Positions 31,811-55,541 of a stretch of 64,000 bases of DNA are shown here, piece by piece. Made by a program: the position numbers and the translations under genes. Origin of the DNA: a virus. How positions within the stretch are numbered: position 1 is the first letter of the stretch; every line of letters begins with the position of its first letter. The stretch spans positions 1-64,000 of the IMG/VR virus record IMGVR_UViG_3300037258_000145. One strand, given 5' to 3'. The notes beneath the pieces were generated by a model. That model saw nothing but the letters and a program-made list of their open reading frames with translations, was not told where the DNA came from and did not search any database.

Positions 31811-31823
31811 TAAGCTTGCTTTC
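31811..31823 (+). promoter_or_regulatory. leaderless-type -10 box
   Basis: TAAGCT at 31811-31816, 7 nt before the GTG at 31824. The whole string TGCTAAGCTTGCTTTC is nearly identical to the sites before 18589, 48911 and 63019. Confidence 0.6.
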
Positions 31824-32030
31824 GTGAAGTCCGACTCAAAACCTTCCGTGGACTGGAACGCTGGCTTTCTCTGGTTTCTCATCACCGGTGTGCTCGGATT
31901 CTGGCTCCTGGTTGTCGCATACCACTCGCACAACTGGGAGAGGGCAAATATCCCCGACGAACTACTGTACGTAGCTCTCCCTACGATCAGTCTTCTTGTG
32001 GGATGGCTCGTGGCAAAGTTCTCTCGATAA
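31824..32030 (+). CDS. small two-helix membrane protein
   Basis: A 68-residue protein with two hydrophobic segments (about residues 14-34 and 46-64) and a short loop. It is a lone plus-strand gene between the fibre block and the connectors, with its own leaderless promoter, and ends in the R3 palindrome. A moron-type gene; possible roles are superinfection exclusion or accessory holin. No family recognised. Confidence 0.6.
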   Translation: MKSDSKPSVDWNAGFLWFLITGVLGFWLLVVAYHSHNWERANIPDELLYVALPTISLLVGWLVAKFSR

Positions 32031-32056
32031 AAGCGCGCGGTCACCGCGCGCTTTCA
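32030..32056. repeat. R-family palindrome, copy 3, possible bidirectional terminator
   Basis: This copy is extended to AAAGCGCGCGGT-C-ACCGCGCGCTTT, a 12-bp perfect inverted repeat with a single central base. It lies exactly between two convergent genes and contributes to the stop regions of both, so it may act as a terminator in both directions. The T-run is short. Confidence 0.65.
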
Positions 32057-35170: not shown

Positions 35171-36031
35171 CTAGGCGGGTGAGAGATAGGTGGATAGACG
35201 GGAGAAGTCGCGGGCCTTGATCTCGGCCTCGGAGAGACGAAGGACGGTGACGCCCTGCTCGGTGAGATAGGCATCTCGCACGGCCTCTCGGTCCGCATTG
35301 CGTCCGTCGTGGTAGTAGGCGCCGTCGGCCTCGATATCAAGACGTAGCGAGGGAACGTAGATGTCGAGCGTGTACGGGCCCTGAGGCTTGTGGACTAAGT
35401 AGGGGACCTCAGCCTCGGTCAGGTACGTCATGACGCCAGCCTCGGGCTTGGTGATGTGATGACCGCCCCTGATGCCGCGGTTCGCTTTGGCAATCGAGGT
35501 CAGAATGGGTTCTCGCTCGGCAGGTCCCATCTTCGCCCAACGGGCTTTGGCCGACTCGCTAGCCTTCTCCCTGGACTCAGGGGTCCACTTGCGGTAGGGG
35601 TTCTTCTTGCGATCAAGCCGGACCTGCGCCAACAGAGTGCGAAAGCGGTCGGCGTATTCGGGGTCGCTCTTGATCCAGCGGAAGTGCTGAGTGAACTCAA
35701 CGCCCGACTTGGCACCGGCCGGTTTCAGCCAGTGAGTCTCAGCGAAGGCCGTCAAGAGAGCGTCCTGACGTTCCCTTTTGCGCTCTTCGTCAACCGGTCG
35801 ACCGGTGCCTGTTGCCCGACCAGTTTTCAAGCCCTCGGCTTGACGCTCAAGGGTGACGATCTCCATGGCCTCTCGGTACTCAGGATCACTGAGCAGCCAG
35901 CGCTCATGTCGAGAACGAGGAATGCCGACGCGTTCGCAGGAAGAAGTGATGTGCCCCGACTCCCTGTAGTGCGTCAGCATCTCTTCCTTCCAGGCCGCTT
36001 GTACTTCCGGGGCCGGTCCTTTTCTGGGCAT
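35171..36031 (-). CDS. Vsr/EDxHD-type homing endonuclease-like protein
   Basis: A 286-residue protein. The C-terminal domain (about residues 195-286) has the Vsr/DUF559 nuclease pattern LDIYVPSLRLDIEADGAYYHD, with E, D, H and D placed as in EDxHD homing enzymes. Upstream are helix-turn-helix-like and NUMOD-like segments (SREKASESAKARWAKMG) for DNA contact. It stands just after the major capsid gene, a favourite site for freestanding homing genes. Its Shine-Dalgarno AGGAG lies inside an 11-bp hairpin (see hairpin entry). Confidence 0.72.
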   Translation of the reverse strand: MPRKGPAPEVQAAWKEEMLTHYRESGHITSSCERVGIPRSRHERWLLSDPEYREAMEIVTLERQAEGLKTGRATGTGRPVDEERKRERQDALLTAFAETHWLKPAGAKSGVEFTQHFRWIKSDPEYADRFRTLLAQVRLDRKKNPYRKWTPESREKASESAKARWAKMGPAEREPILTSIAKANRGIRGGHHITKPEAGVMTYLTEAEVPYLVHKPQGPYTLDIYVPSLRLDIEADGAYYHDGRNADREAVRDAYLTEQGVTVLRLSEAEIKARDFSRLSTYLSPA

Positions 36032-36038
36032 CGTACAA

Positions 36039-36086
36039 ATCTCCTAGGGCTAGGCACACTCGGCCTTGACCCTAGGAGATAGCTTA
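36039..36086 (-). promoter_or_regulatory. start-site-sequestering hairpin with internal promoter
   Basis: ATCTCCTAGGG (36070-36080 on the minus strand) and CCCTAGGAGAT (36039-36049) form a perfect 11-bp stem with a 20-nt loop. The 3' arm contains the Shine-Dalgarno of the endonuclease. A TAAGCT box (36081-36086) would start transcription near 36073, inside the 5' arm, leaving only 4 bp of the stem and freeing the site. Readthrough from the capsid gene would carry the full stem. Confidence 0.7.
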
Positions 36087-36192
36087 CCACCTTTTGTTAC
36101 CCCAATACTATCGATCCATCCTTATGACACGGTGTTCTGAAGCAGTGCTGCATTCCCGTGACTTGCGGCGTCTTTAGAATTGGGGTGCACGC
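36087..36192 (-). other. untranslated spacer after the major capsid gene
   Basis: AT-richer than its surroundings, with no open frame. CACCCCAAT near 36178 and ATTGGGGTA near 36100 could pair over a ~60-nt loop. A third copy of GCACCCCAAT lies in the last codons of the capsid gene. I see no group I intron core. Confidence 0.4.
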
Positions 36193-38181
36193 TCAAAAAT
36201 ACGGCGTTGACGTGCCTGAAGACTGTTGAAGACCGCTAATCAATCCTAAATATTGGGGTGCGGCACAAAAGAATGAGCCGAAACGAAGGATGCTTTGCCT
36301 GAACGTAGGATCGATTACCGGCCAGCCGATCTGCGCGTAGTCCTGGACCATCACGTTCTCCATGACGTTGCCCAGGTTGTTTTGCGTCTGGGGCAGCGTG
36401 TAGGACAGGAACAATGCCATGCCCTGGGTCATGTACGGATGGACCACGATCTCGGGCATGGACCTCGTGACCGGGTTGACCACGTTGGACACGGCGGCGC
36501 CGGCGGTAACGCCGGCCATCTCGGTCTGTTGGATCCGGAGCTGATAAGCGGCTACGGATTCGGACAGGATCGAGTTGTTGAGCGTGGTGGCGTCGTTGGG
36601 GCTCGTCATGATCTCGCTCGGGTTGGCGAAGTAGCCGTTGGTCCCGTTGAACATTTGCTGGAGGGCGGTTTGGACCACGCTCACGTTGAGCGGGAGCCCT
36701 ATGCCCTCTTTGTAGTAGCCGGGGTTGACGGCCGGGGAGCTTCCGGGGCCGGGGTAGGGGCCTGAGCCTGAGTTGTAGCTCCGACCGCTGACGACGGCGA
36801 TGATCGACTCCATGCGGTTCGTGGAGCCGGTGCCGGTGTCCGCGCTCGGGGGGTTGGCTCCCGTGGTGGGCAGCGCGCCCTGGAGCGTGAACTTGGTGGC
36901 GCCGACGATCCCGTTCAGGGTGTTGAGGCCGACGAACTGGAACAGGCTGGTCCGGGCGGGCTGGGTCGAGGAGTTGTTCCCGATGTAGATCTTGTAGCCC
37001 ATGGCCCCGTTTACGAGCGGCAGGGTTACGTCGATCACCGAGGTTCCCGTGGTGGCCGTGGTGGACTCGGCGGCAGTGGCGTTGTAGGTTGTCTCGCCCC
37101 AGAAGTCGAGCGCCGTCACGGTGACCCAGATGTTGGTACCACCGGCAAAGGTGATCGGGGTCTCGCCCGTTCCGGCGTTCCTGGTGGCGATCGTGGCCGT
37201 GGTCGGAGTGGCCAGGGCTTGCGAGCTGGACGCCAGGATGTCGTGCTCTTCGAGCAGCATGAACTCTTGGAGCAGGATCATCGCCGCCAAACCGAACACG
37301 TCATCGTAGCCCTGGCCCGCGAATTGGGCCAGCCAGGACACGCCTTCAGTCAGGGCGAAGAACTTGTACGGGATCATCAGGTCGTACGCCGTCTGGGTGC
37401 CCGAAGCCGGCAACGCGTTGGGCCAGGACGAGAAGCTGCCGCCGAAGAACTCAGAGGTGGAGTCGTCCTGGAGGGTACCGAGCTGGCCCGGGAGCGAACC
37501 GGTGATGCTCGCCATGATCTTGGCCCGGTGGTACGTGCCCTGGCCGGGAACGCGCGGGAGCTTGTTCCGGAGCAGGGTGTACACGGGGTAGATCGTGCGC
37601 ACGAACGGCACCAGGTCGTAGGGCACGAAGCCGGACGACAGGGGGCTTGTCAGGGCGATGGTCTTGTTCGACCGTCCTTTGCCGCCCTTTAGGAGCGACT
37701 GGCTCATGTTCTGGGCCGAGAATTGCGTCATGAACTGCATCGGTCCGCGCAGTTCAGGGCAGAAGCTCTTTAGGACCTTGTCGCCCTTGTACATGGACTT
37801 GTGGATCACTTCGTCCAAGGTGGCGGAGGCGAACGCCTCCAGGCGGGCTGAGGTGTTCATGTCGAGCCCGGCACCGTTCAGGCGCATGGCGGGGTCCTGG
37901 ATGCGGGCTCCTGCGCTCTTGAGGGCCGGGTTGATGTCCCAGCGCTGGCCGATGTTCTGGGTCCCGTAGCCGCCGATGAGACCCTTCAGGGCCGCACTGC
38001 GGACTTCGGACGCCTTGGAGTAACGACCGCCTTCGATGGCGTCCTGCCAGTCGAGCACGCCGAGCCCGCCGCGGTGAGAACCACCGGGAGCTTGGTCGAG
38101 CCTGGACTTCAGGCTGGTAAAGGGATTGACGTTCAGGTCTCCCTGCGCGCCTTGCTCCCGTGAGAATGCGGTAAAGGTCAG
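36193..38181 (-). CDS. major capsid protein with Ig-like insertion (CTG start)
   Basis: A 662-residue protein begun at the CTG of AGGAGGGCATCTG; the first usual start, GTG at 38058, would remove 41 residues. HK97-fold landmarks are a long N-terminal helix region, E-loop-like PALKSAGARIQDPAMRLNGAG, spine-helix segment (DVFGLAAMILLQEFMLLEEHDILA) and the late IVVHPYMTQGMALFLSY. Residues ~330-445 form an inserted beta domain (TVTALDFWGETTYNATAAES...) that would project from the capsid. Unusually long for the family. Confidence 0.8.
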   Translation of the reverse strand: MTFTAFSREQGAQGDLNVNPFTSLKSRLDQAPGGSHRGGLGVLDWQDAIEGGRYSKASEVRSAALKGLIGGYGTQNIGQRWDINPALKSAGARIQDPAMRLNGAGLDMNTSARLEAFASATLDEVIHKSMYKGDKVLKSFCPELRGPMQFMTQFSAQNMSQSLLKGGKGRSNKTIALTSPLSSGFVPYDLVPFVRTIYPVYTLLRNKLPRVPGQGTYHRAKIMASITGSLPGQLGTLQDDSTSEFFGGSFSSWPNALPASGTQTAYDLMIPYKFFALTEGVSWLAQFAGQGYDDVFGLAAMILLQEFMLLEEHDILASSSQALATPTTATIATRNAGTGETPITFAGGTNIWVTVTALDFWGETTYNATAAESTTATTGTSVIDVTLPLVNGAMGYKIYIGNNSSTQPARTSLFQFVGLNTLNGIVGATKFTLQGALPTTGANPPSADTGTGSTNRMESIIAVVSGRSYNSGSGPYPGPGSSPAVNPGYYKEGIGLPLNVSVVQTALQQMFNGTNGYFANPSEIMTSPNDATTLNNSILSESVAAYQLRIQQTEMAGVTAGAAVSNVVNPVTRSMPEIVVHPYMTQGMALFLSYTLPQTQNNLGNVMENVMVQDYAQIGWPVIDPTFRQSILRFGSFFCAAPQYLGLISGLQQSSGTSTPYF

Positions 38182-48375: not shown

Positions 48376-48694
48376 GGTCCGGCTCCAAATACGCGCGGTC
48401 ACCGCGCGCTTTCAGTTCGTCGGCCACTAGATCGGCCAAGTGGTCGAGGGCGTCGGGTGGGATCATGGCGGTTGAGAACTCAATATCGCCGACGATGACG
48501 AAGATTGGGGGCGGGTCAACACCTCGATAGAGGAAATTAGCCTCGATGGCATCCTGTAACTGGTGGCCTGCCTCCCAGCTCAGGCTTGGGCTCTTGACGA
48601 CCAGCATCTCGCCCGGTTTCAACTCCAGCTTGGCTATCTCGACGCGGACCGCCTCAGCGATCACAGGGACTTGGACCAAGGGGACTTCAGCCAT
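48368..48694 (-). CDS. hypothetical protein with in-frame R palindrome
   Basis: A 108-residue alpha/beta protein (GEMLVVKSPSLSWEAGHQLQDA, PPPIFVIVGDIEF). The R-family palindrome near its end is translated as KARGDRAYLE. No family recognised. Confidence 0.5.
   Translation of the reverse strand: MAEVPLVQVPVIAEAVRVEIAKLELKPGEMLVVKSPSLSWEAGHQLQDAIEANFLYRGVDPPPIFVIVGDIEFSTAMIPPDALDHLADLVADELKARGDRAYLEPDHG
48387..48414. repeat. R-family palindrome, copy 5
   Basis: Core at 48392-48408, inside the 3' end of the 48368-48694 gene. Confidence 0.85.
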
Positions 48695-51545: not shown

Positions 51546-54500
51546 TTACTTGGTACCAGGTAATTCTTCCCGCACATCCTCACGTGGCACGTCGTGATTT
51601 TTTGTGTTGTACTGCATCTGGCGCACCTTCTGTGGCCAGTCTGCGTCTCCGCTGCCCGGGGTCCCCACCCAGGCAGCGGAGGTGGTGTGCCCTGCCTTTT
51701 GGAGCGCTTCGGTGCGGTAGTACCCGTCAGCGATGACCATCTTCGGCCCCGCGCCCGCCACTAAGACAATGGGCTTGGGCTGCTTGCCGCCCTTGATCTC
51801 TTCCACCTTTTCCTCGACACGGGCGGGGTCGCGCCCGCCGGGGCGGTGGGCCATTTCGATGTCGTCGAGGGCGACGGCGGGCTTTAGCTGCCACTCGCAA
51901 CCCTTCACCCAGTCCAGGTCGACCTTGTCGTAGTGCTTGGCCAGGTACTTGTAGACGTGGTCAGCGGCATCGTCGTCGTCGTCGGCCTTACCGTAGGCGC
52001 CGGGCTTCACCTGTCCTTCAGGCCAGGGAGCGGGCGCTTTGGTAGCGGTGTAGCCGGGAGGGAGGCGGCGGTTCAGGAGGGATTCGAACGACTCCTCGTC
52101 GGACTTCAGCGCCGGCGCGGCCAGGGTGTGCATGATCTGAGGCAAGCTCGCCATCATTTCGGGACGTAGTGGGAGCTGAGCCAGGTGGTTGGGGTCGAAC
52201 CACGCCACGGCCTCGAAGCTGTCGCCGTCGGGATTGTTCACCTCGCGCCATTCGCCCTGGTTGACATCCACGCTCGCCTCATGGGCTGTCTCGACCACGA
52301 AGCCCTGATAGATGCCGCTCGTCCAGGAGCCGAGCCACTTGGCGTCTGCCGGTAGGAAGGTCCCTACCTCTTCGCCCCATTCCCTCGCCGCGCCTTGCTC
52401 GGGTGATTCGCCCGCCTCAAGATGTCCCCCTGGCAATTCCCACATGCCGGCGCAGGGGTCAGAGGGGTCGTTGGCCCGCTGGAGCAGTAGGACTCGCCCG
52501 GAGTCGAAGGCACGGAGCAAAGCGCCAGCACAGGTGACCTGAGGCGTGGCTGTGGTCATCGCTGGGCCTTCGGAATCGGGGCCCTGTGCCTTGGCGGCGT
52601 TGGCTTCGTCGAGGCGTTGCTGGCCCCACTGCTTGGGGTGCTTGGCTGGCTTCTTGCCGCACTGGAGGCAGCGCACTCCTGAGCCGACGTAGGCATGGCG
52701 TTGGGTGCGCTCGGCGACGTTGTTCGGTGCTACCTGGCCCGGTTCGGGGCCTGAGAGGTCGAAGGGGACAAAGCCAGTGTCCAGGGGTGCTCCGACGCTG
52801 ATGTCCTTGGGAGTCGCGCGCGTGCGACTTTTGCTCATCCATGCGGGATCGGTGCCCTGCGTGGTCTGGCGGGCGATCGAGGGGCTTTGGGTCTGAGCTA
52901 GGACCGAGTCGCCCTGCTCATAACTGAGCGAGCAGGCGCAGGCGGGCCCTCCGAGGCACAGGGTATCTTGGCCGTAGTCCCCGTCTCCAGGGAATCCGGG
53001 CAGATCAGCGGGGCTAAACGTCTGGCCGTCGAGAGCCAGGCAGTTCTCACAATTTTCGGCGTCACCGAGGGTCCAGCGGATCACACTGTTGGTGCCATCG
53101 GCATCCGGCGCCGCGGCGATGTAGCCCTGCTCGTACGGCGCCGTGAGCCCATCGGCGTAAGATTGGACCCTGGTAGCGGTCGACTGCGCCCCGCTCGGTG
53201 CGTTGACCGCGCCTGCGACAACTCCACCGACTACGTCGAGAGCTAGGTCCTTCAGGTACGGCATCATGCTCATGGCCCGGGTTTGAGCTAGGGCGGGGGC
53301 ACTCTCGGGACTGGGTGGGCTGGCAGCGTCCCCCCAGTCACCAGCCCCGCTACCGGCACCAGCGGTATATGCGTCCTGGTATGCCTGAGCCAGGATGGGG
53401 ATGGCGGCCGGCGCGAACTGGGCGGGCTTTAGCTTGTGATCGGTGAGCTTGTGCACCAGGGCGGTCAGACCGGCCATCAGGGAGGCTCTGGGCTTGGCCA
53501 GAGCGGTCTCCCGGTGGTCTAGCCGTCTCTGGGCCTTAGCGGCCTTCAGGGCGGCCGTGGCGGGGTCCTGCTCGCCTTTGGCGGCCTTCAGGGCGGCAGG
53601 GCGCAGTGCTCGGGGCTCGAAGCTCTCCAGCGACTTGCCGCGGGCCAGATAGCGGCGCAGGGCGCGCAGTTCGTTTGCCTTCTCTTTTTGGCTGGCCGAT
53701 TCGTGCGGCTCGGCATCTCCCGCCGCCGTCAGGCCTTGGTCGGCGGTGCTCTTGTCGGGTTCAGGAGCATTGCCGTTGGCGGGCGGTTTGGGTAGAGCAG
53801 GAGGCTTGTTGCCGGGCTTAGGCGGCGCTGGCGGCTTGCTAGCGCCGCCCTCAGGTGGCAAGGGTCGGGAGTTGGCGTCGATCGGGGCCGGACCTGAGCC
53901 GGGCGGAGGGGGCGGAGTTTGGCCCATGGGGATAACGCCGGTCGGGAGGAATTGGAGCGGCACCATCGACCAAGGCTCGTTGTAGGTCTTCAGGTCCAAC
54001 GCGATGCACGCTTCGTCGATCGAGGTGAGAGACGCCTTGACGAGTGCAACTTGGTCGGTGATGCGGTCCGACAAGGTCTCGCCCTGGTCCATGACTCCCC
54101 AGGACCACGCCATGTCCGTCTGGCCGAACTTGCCCCGGATCAGGGGATCGAACAGGCCCGTTTTCAGCTTCTTGGCCAGGGGGATGGCACTGCGGCGCGT
54201 CGTCTGGTCGGCGGCTTGGGTGGCGGCGTTCTTGGAGGCCGCCGGGCTCATCATCGAAGAGAGCTTGGGGGTGATGCCGAGGTCGCTGATCGACAAGCCG
54301 AACGGCATGGCGATGAGTGAGGTAAACCACGTGTCGATGTCGTCGGAGAGGTCGGCCGGCTTTTGGGGACTGACTTTTGCTCCAGGCGGTGTGACAATGA
54401 CTTGATGCATGTTGGCGAGGTCGCCACCGAGTTGGTTGATCGCCTGCATGAGCTGGCGGGCTTCCTCGGGCGTAGCGATCGACTCGCCGGGGTCCATGAA

Positions 54501-55541
54501 AACCGCCGGCAGCGACCCGTTTCGGAACCACTCACTTTGCCAAGTCTGACGGGCCAGCATCAGCGATATGGCCATGATGCCCTGTTCTGTTGGCCCCATG
54601 CCGTAAGGCGTCCAAGTCCTCGGGTTGGACTTGAAGTAGATCATCTCCGACCCGATCCACTCCTCACCCGTGGTGGTCAATTGGTCTAGCAAGGGGTTTA
54701 GCGCCTTGTAATCCTCGATCGTGGCGTCAGGACCGAGGTTGATGATGTCCATGAGGTCGACGCGGGGCACGCCCCAAAGCACCTGTTGATAGGCCACGGC
54801 TGGCTGCTTGGGTCGGGTCCCCCACTCGTCCATCAGGGGCTTTATCAAACTGGCATCTTGTAGGCACAGAGCACCCACGCTTGAGCCAGCCGGACCGTTC
54901 CCCTTCCCACCCGCTGGCTGGAGATAGATGGCCACAGCATCCAGTACAAGATTGTCTTCGAAGAGGGCATTGAGCCAGAGATCGCCTGAGTCGTACTGGT
55001 CAGGGTCAGGGTTCGCAAAGAACTCCATCAGCTCGCCCTTGCGACTCTCCCAGTCGGCTTTCTTGGAGGGATTTCCCTGCATCCCTGCTTGAGCGGCGGG
55101 CGTCGGGACTATGTCGTAGTCGGCGACGATAAGGTCCGCTTTTCTTATTTCTATGCACGTCCGACCAATAGCGGGTATTTCGGCTAAATCGCGCAGCTGA
55201 GCGAAGTTTGCGAGCTTAATTCCTTCGGTGCCGGGCTGGCCGATCGGCAAATTCCAACCGACCATCGGCTGAAGTCGCCTCGGGCGGGGCCGTCCGTTCG
55301 GCTCCTCCGGTATGTCGATGGGCACCGGCAGGATCGGTGACAGCGGGGAGAAGTCGCCGCTCGTGAACGTCTGCATGGGGCGCGGCAGCCCCAGCAATCC
55401 CTCGTATGCCTGACTGGCCCAGCCCGCGGCCTGGCCTGGCAGTTGGTACATGTTCGCCCGAGGACTATTGGGCTGGATGCCGTTGGCCCCGACGTCACCA
55501 GGACGAGCAGAATTGATAACGGCCCTAGCCAAGGGGTTCAC
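51546..55541 (-). CDS. portal-MuF-Nudix-ParB-like fusion protein
   Basis: A 1331-residue protein (1345 if TTG at 55583 is used). Residues ~60-560: portal protein (IPAIGRTCIEIRKADLIVADYD, ...MLARQTWQSEWFRNGSLPAVFM). ~600-900: MuF-like minor head domain with NCENCLALDGQTFSP and a Cys pair. ~990-1130: Nudix hydrolase with a complete Nudix box (GGHLEAGESPEQGAAREWGEEVG). ~1215-1330: ParB/sulfiredoxin-like domain (VALDDIEMAHR, MVIADGYYRTEALQ). GTG at 55541 preferred because it overlaps the stop of a CTG leader frame. S-palindrome copy 4 is in frame. Confidence 0.8.
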   Translation of the reverse strand: MNPLARAVINSARPGDVGANGIQPNSPRANMYQLPGQAAGWASQAYEGLLGLPRPMQTFTSGDFSPLSPILPVPIDIPEEPNGRPRPRRLQPMVGWNLPIGQPGTEGIKLANFAQLRDLAEIPAIGRTCIEIRKADLIVADYDIVPTPAAQAGMQGNPSKKADWESRKGELMEFFANPDPDQYDSGDLWLNALFEDNLVLDAVAIYLQPAGGKGNGPAGSSVGALCLQDASLIKPLMDEWGTRPKQPAVAYQQVLWGVPRVDLMDIINLGPDATIEDYKALNPLLDQLTTTGEEWIGSEMIYFKSNPRTWTPYGMGPTEQGIMAISLMLARQTWQSEWFRNGSLPAVFMDPGESIATPEEARQLMQAINQLGGDLANMHQVIVTPPGAKVSPQKPADLSDDIDTWFTSLIAMPFGLSISDLGITPKLSSMMSPAASKNAATQAADQTTRRSAIPLAKKLKTGLFDPLIRGKFGQTDMAWSWGVMDQGETLSDRITDQVALVKASLTSIDEACIALDLKTYNEPWSMVPLQFLPTGVIPMGQTPPPPPGSGPAPIDANSRPLPPEGGASKPPAPPKPGNKPPALPKPPANGNAPEPDKSTADQGLTAAGDAEPHESASQKEKANELRALRRYLARGKSLESFEPRALRPAALKAAKGEQDPATAALKAAKAQRRLDHRETALAKPRASLMAGLTALVHKLTDHKLKPAQFAPAAIPILAQAYQDAYTAGAGSGAGDWGDAASPPSPESAPALAQTRAMSMMPYLKDLALDVVGGVVAGAVNAPSGAQSTATRVQSYADGLTAPYEQGYIAAAPDADGTNSVIRWTLGDAENCENCLALDGQTFSPADLPGFPGDGDYGQDTLCLGGPACACSLSYEQGDSVLAQTQSPSIARQTTQGTDPAWMSKSRTRATPKDISVGAPLDTGFVPFDLSGPEPGQVAPNNVAERTQRHAYVGSGVRCLQCGKKPAKHPKQWGQQRLDEANAAKAQGPDSEGPAMTTATPQVTCAGALLRAFDSGRVLLLQRANDPSDPCAGMWELPGGHLEAGESPEQGAAREWGEEVGTFLPADAKWLGSWTSGIYQGFVVETAHEASVDVNQGEWREVNNPDGDSFEAVAWFDPNHLAQLPLRPEMMASLPQIMHTLAAPALKSDEESFESLLNRRLPPGYTATKAPAPWPEGQVKPGAYGKADDDDDAADHVYKYLAKHYDKVDLDWVKGCEWQLKPAVALDDIEMAHRPGGRDPARVEEKVEEIKGGKQPKPIVLVAGAGPKMVIADGYYRTEALQKAGHTTSAAWVGTPGSGDADWPQKVRQMQYNTKNHDVPREDVREELPGTK
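52812..52829. repeat. S-family palindrome, copy 4
   Basis: In frame inside the portal fusion, encoding KSRTRAT. Flank identity with copy 1 extends to about 26 bp. Confidence 0.8.

Follow-up and report, generated by a model that had tools for sequence, protein, structure and literature searches.

The closest described systems are the genes of the endonucleases I-TevI, I-TevII and I-TevIII of phage T4, in which long read-through transcripts enclose the Shine-Dalgarno (SD) sequence of the endonuclease in a stable hairpin, and a promoter is positioned so that its RNA is made without the 5' arm of that hairpin (PMC2988022). In T4, it is the nested promoter that is late, and read-through transcription belongs to the early or middle phase (PMC2988022). 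RNA structures that reduce translation initiation have also been shown for mobE of phage Aeh1 and implicated for segB of T4 (PMC3014915, PMC2988022), and a hairpin-covered SD is a known way of quieting such genes in read-through mRNA (PMC2988022).

The locus described here comes from the 87.7-kb IMG/VR contig of an uncultured phage, with 62.5% GC, whose first 64,000 nucleotides form the window; coordinates are those of the window unless the record is named. The best overall explanation for it, held with moderate confidence, is a translational lock on the read-through mRNA of the major capsid gene, which would be relieved by RNA shortened at its 5' end.

The endonuclease gene and its genomic context

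The minus strand carries genes for portal-like, maturation-protease-like, capsid and connector proteins, and two of its genes are central to this analysis:

35171..36031, minus strand: homing endonuclease gene, 286 aa, with a C-terminal DUF559 nuclease domain (profile matches)
36193..38058, minus strand: major capsid gene, source of the read-through mRNA (MMB025 similarity, gene order and L002)

The capsid protein was assigned from gene order and from a weak match to the protein annotated as the major head protein in Alicyclobacillus phage MMB025. The protein matches PHROG 13692, a family of unknown function, and its only close relative is L002 (63% identical in the best segment), which a profile search with the capsid protein returned again, with nothing further. 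The endonuclease matches DUF559 (PF04480) with E=1.6e-7 and 31.6 bits, compared with a Pfam cutoff of 20.6, as well as a PHROG 'homing endonuclease' family, and it contains the motif DIEADGAYYHD, which resembles the Vsr/DUF559 core. Among named phages there were weak matches to the nuclease core alone, Hef-like enzymes among them, and no homologues were found in IMG/VR or GTDB genomes. An AlphaFold model made without an alignment (mean pLDDT 46) was too poor for use.

No endonuclease is found behind the capsid gene in L002, MMB025 or Thermoanaerobacterium phage THSA-485A, where small genes and connector genes follow in a similar gene order, so the gene is most simply explained as an insertion in the lineage of the present phage. 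An endonuclease borne by a group I intron was rejected, given that the capsid C-terminus is complete relative to L002 and that there is no Rfam intron match even at a relaxed E-value; the gene is thus free-standing. The CACCCCAAT repeats, common to the capsid 3' end and the intergenic region, were considered as a homing site plus operator, a weak candidate, as 12 of 500 and 83 of 500 shuffles score as high.

Nine palindromes of almost identical sequence, GCGCGGTSACCGCGC, divide the genome; their flanks are conserved (in most cases AATAC before and GCTTTC after), and they are terminator-like in both directions:

5365, 18072, 32035, 48393 and 55587 of the window: GCGCGGTSACCGCGC palindromes
65383, 74126, 80622 and 85846 of the record: GCGCGGTSACCGCGC palindromes

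Those neighbouring the endonuclease locus are at 48393 and 32035, and none of the nine lies between the capsid and connector genes, which therefore appear to share one transcription unit with the endonuclease, so that the capsid mRNA should traverse the hairpin described below.

Two other features were observed along these genes. Positions 31811-32054 hold a moron-like plus-strand unit inside the late minus-strand operon, with a leaderless promoter, a hydrophobic (probable membrane) protein of 68 aa with a GTG start and a terminator-like palindrome at its stop codon. Positions 51546-55265 form a single ORF of 1239 aa, whose one reading frame encodes both a NUDIX domain (E=1e-19) and a portal-like part (E=2e-8, slightly short of the Pfam cutoff).

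A predicted hairpin over the Shine-Dalgarno sequence

On the plus strand, 36039-36049 (ATCTCCTAGGG) and 36070-36080 (CCCTAGGAGAT) are complementary at 11 of 11 positions and separated by a 20-nt loop, and the minus-strand RNA is predicted to fold into a hairpin of 12 pairs, one of them an extra G-U, with a free energy of -26.4 kcal/mol and a z-score of about -5. The parts of the locus are, on the minus strand in every case:

36039..36049, minus strand: 3' arm of the hairpin, containing the SD (sequence and fold)
36041..36045, minus strand: SD sequence AGGAG, 9 nt before the endonuclease ATG, wholly within the 3' arm
36050..36069, minus strand: hairpin loop of 20 nt, between both arms
36070..36080, minus strand: 5' arm of the hairpin, the anti-SD arm (sequence and fold)
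36073, minus strand: predicted start point A36073, from the 7-nt spacing of the promoter family
36081..36086, minus strand: TAAGCT, candidate -10 hexamer, abutting the stem from outside (sequence)

The first-pass annotation, made from the sequence, had described a perfect 11-bp stem that captures the AGGAG of the endonuclease, and this description holds at every position of the stem, with 36041-36045 entirely in the 3' arm. It had also placed a promoter inside the hairpin, of which the predicted start alone lies inside, the hexamer being outside the stem.

In the genome as such, perfect inverted repeats of 11 bp or more are no rarity, with three found and 1.3 expected, whereas a perfect 11-bp repeat covering an SD is rare. 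Opening the SD of the endonuclease costs 12.2 kcal/mol, compared with a mean of 2.8 in shuffled or random genomic upstream sequence; a cost as high as that of the endonuclease is reached by 1 of 1000 dinucleotide shuffles and by 0 of 1500 genomic segments. It is the highest among the SD genes of the 87.7-kb record, which number about 24, the count being approximate because genes beyond the locus were called with a simple script. The case for the lock is built on thermodynamics and position; searches for relatives of the endonuclease and of its leader found none. Three viral contigs matched a 16-mer of the 5' arm, at an unrelated locus where the same hairpin is absent, and these matches were taken as chance. 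Separately, the capsid 3'UTR holds a second paired stretch at 36099-36186, with 11 of 12 positions paired and a z-score of -2.3; as an alternative, the end of the capsid coding sequence could be the partner of the 3' arm of this stretch.

Access to the Shine-Dalgarno sequence and the 5' end of the RNA

The cost of opening the AGGAG was computed for many RNA 5' and 3' ends. For RNA starting at 36078 or further upstream, the mean cost is 10.6-12.8 kcal/mol, and the duplex with the anti-SD returns -7.3 kcal/mol, less than has to be spent. The cost then falls to 6.9 for a start at 36076, 4.2 at 36075, 1.9 at 36074 and 1.3 kcal/mol at 36073, with a sharp cutoff for release between 36074 and 36075; this collapse over a few start positions indicates that a handful of nucleotides in the 5' arm decides whether the lock holds. 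Two earlier proposals, that RNA beginning at 36073 exposes the SD and that read-through RNA keeps it closed, thus agree with the folding scan, in which every long transcript carries a cost of about 11-13 kcal/mol and the cost at 36073 drops to the lowest value given here. As to an opening of the hairpin by translation of a leader ORF, a 38-codon GTG frame is present at 35974-36090, without a convincing SD.

The TAAGCT family and the candidate start point

The genome contains a promoter-like family of 16 copies with the consensus TGC TAAGCT nnC TTTC ATG ACCACC:

1194 (minus strand), 5407 (minus), 18575 (plus), 31811 (plus), 48925 (minus), 57679 (minus) and 63032 (minus) of the window: TAAGCT family sites
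65765-85819 of the record: TAAGCT family sites (L006, L007)

In most copies an ATG or GTG follows after 7 nt, as the start of a leaderless gene whose protein begins with MTT; several of these genes start directly at the predicted +1, and some copies have TTGACC 16-18 nt upstream. TAAGCT accounts for 9 of the 20 TGNTANNNT words in the genome. The member at 78817 of the record retains TTTC despite an ordinary SD leader, and TTTC therefore seems to belong to the promoter, not to translation. Twelve of the 16 sites are in the 48-86 kb arm, together with Gam-like, DnaA-like, helicase and methylase genes. The exact consensus pattern is absent from other IMG/VR contigs, and sister phages sought through the promoter motif (IMG/VR and genomes) and the terminator repeat (IMG/VR) gave only one chance match of 39% GC. 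It was also observed that some of the GCGCGGTSACCGCGC palindromes stand directly upstream of a TAAGCT promoter, forming a terminator-promoter cassette.

At the endonuclease, the TAAGCT hexamer and the TG match this family; the hexamer is preceded by TGG, where all 16 members have C, is followed by ATCTCCT instead of nnCTTTC, so that the TTTC discriminator is absent, and has no -35 element (2 of 6 positions). By the extended -10 alone, this site, which was picked after the fact, ranks 19th of 175,000 positions, 16 of those ahead being the training sites; by the full motif it scores -0.8 bits, which is background, at rank 188, whereas family members reach at least 13.6 when scored leave-one-out. 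With the family's 7-nt spacing, +1 falls at A36073, exactly the optimum that the folding scan found independently. The start near 36073 proposed in the first-pass annotation agrees with this prediction; its promoter is supported in part, as the hexamer is the -10 of a repeated family and the invariant C, the TTTC and the -35 are lacking; and a real start at 36073 would not be leaderless, the leader being 42 nt long with an SD. A nested promoter at this TAAGCT is thus suggested, tentatively, by hexamer and spacing.

The same features can be read as the same lock without such a promoter, with ribonuclease cleavage in the 5' arm or loop freeing the SD, or with a gene that is nearly silent. The missing C, TTTC and -35 speak for this reading, and RNase E processing has been reported for the transcripts of segB, segG and Aeh1 mobE (PMC2988022), while the exact match of the hexamer to the phage's own promoter family, at the spacing that gives exactly the SD-opening start, argues against it; we regard it as somewhat unlikely.

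Other possible roles of the inverted repeat

A role in DNA was considered, in which a repressor, either the endonuclease or a regulator of the phage, would bind the repeat beside a promoter, the RNA hairpin being a by-product of the dyad. I-TevI autorepresses at its own promoter (PMC2988022), the arms are built on the palindrome CCTAGG, two of only four CCTAGG sites in the genome are located here, and the repeat holds the genome's sole cluster of three CTAG within 40 bp. On the other hand, a dyad of 11+20+11 is long for an operator, the half site has no second copy elsewhere in the genome and the SD falls wholly inside one arm; we regard an operator as improbable.

That the pairing arose by chance and has no function is less probable still: in its favour, the genome has three perfect 11-bp repeats where 1.3 are expected, and against it stand the exact coincidence with the SD of the endonuclease and the near absence of equally high opening costs in shuffled and genomic sequence. 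If the hairpin instead terminated the capsid mRNA or stabilised its 3' end, overlapping the SD by accident, this would fit its place after the capsid gene, behind which L002 likewise has a GC hairpin; this is nevertheless the least probable reading, as there is no U-run (tail UUGUACGA), the hairpin is absent from the terminator scan and unlike the nine terminator-like palindromes of the phage, the downstream connector genes need read-through, and 112 nt separate it from the capsid stop.

Proposed mechanism

In the preferred explanation, the translational lock, a free-standing DUF559-type endonuclease gene would have entered the late structural transcription unit directly after the major capsid gene, so that capsid mRNA could extend into the connector genes only by reading through the insertion. 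On this mRNA, as judged from sequence and thermodynamics, a hairpin of 11-12 bp would cover the SD and block translation, and the endonuclease would thus not be over-made. The lock itself is probably real. It would be relieved by RNA with its 5' end at or downstream of 36074, the most likely candidate being a short transcript that begins at A36073 and is driven by the neighbouring TAAGCT, and the alternative being RNA trimmed by an RNase; relief by a start from TAAGCT is possible, though held with less confidence than the lock.

The TAAGCT class, to which the nested site would belong, would serve mainly the DNA-metabolism arm, and if its members are early promoters, the circuit would mirror that of T4: the endonuclease would be produced early, from a short RNA of its own, and shut off once the capsid operon supplies read-through mRNA in bulk. 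Such a mirror image, in which a DUF559 endonuclease in an unrelated phage would have adopted the same RNA lock independently and with opposite timing, we consider unlikely.

If confirmed, the combination of an SD-sequestering hairpin and a nested start would stand as a convergent solution of phage homing endonucleases that extends beyond T4-like phages and the GIY-YIG and HNH families. It would also explain how a DNA-cutting gene can be present without overproduction in the operon that phages usually transcribe most strongly.

Comparison with known systems

Among named phages, the Hef enzymes of phage U5 and relatives have weak similarity in the nuclease domain (E about 9e-3, residues 219-270); the nuclease core alone aligns, at 34% identity, and the DNA-binding parts and the genome position differ. 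In its control elements, the locus resembles the I-TevI, segB and mobE type, in which a consensus SD precedes the start codon by about 8 nt (here AGGAG, 9 nt from an ATG) and read-through transcripts form a stable SD-sequestering RNA structure (here predicted in silico). I-TevI, I-TevII and I-TevIII are intron-encoded GIY-YIG or HNH enzymes, whereas the present gene is a free-standing DUF559 gene with no intron and a candidate promoter; and while the nested promoter of T4 is the late one, here the read-through from the capsid operon would be late, so that the timing is perhaps reversed. Aeh1 mobE and T4 segB are likewise free-standing phage endonuclease genes, but these encode HNH and GIY-YIG enzymes in T4-like phages, in nrdA and in the tRNA region, and the present gene encodes a DUF559 enzyme in a high-GC, non-T4 phage, behind the capsid gene. 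The earlier suggestion that the logic matches the control of T4 I-TevI is borne out by this comparison and extends to the architecture of segB and Aeh1 mobE (PMC2988022), and the present locus is probably a further member of this type of control, found in an unrelated high-GC phage.
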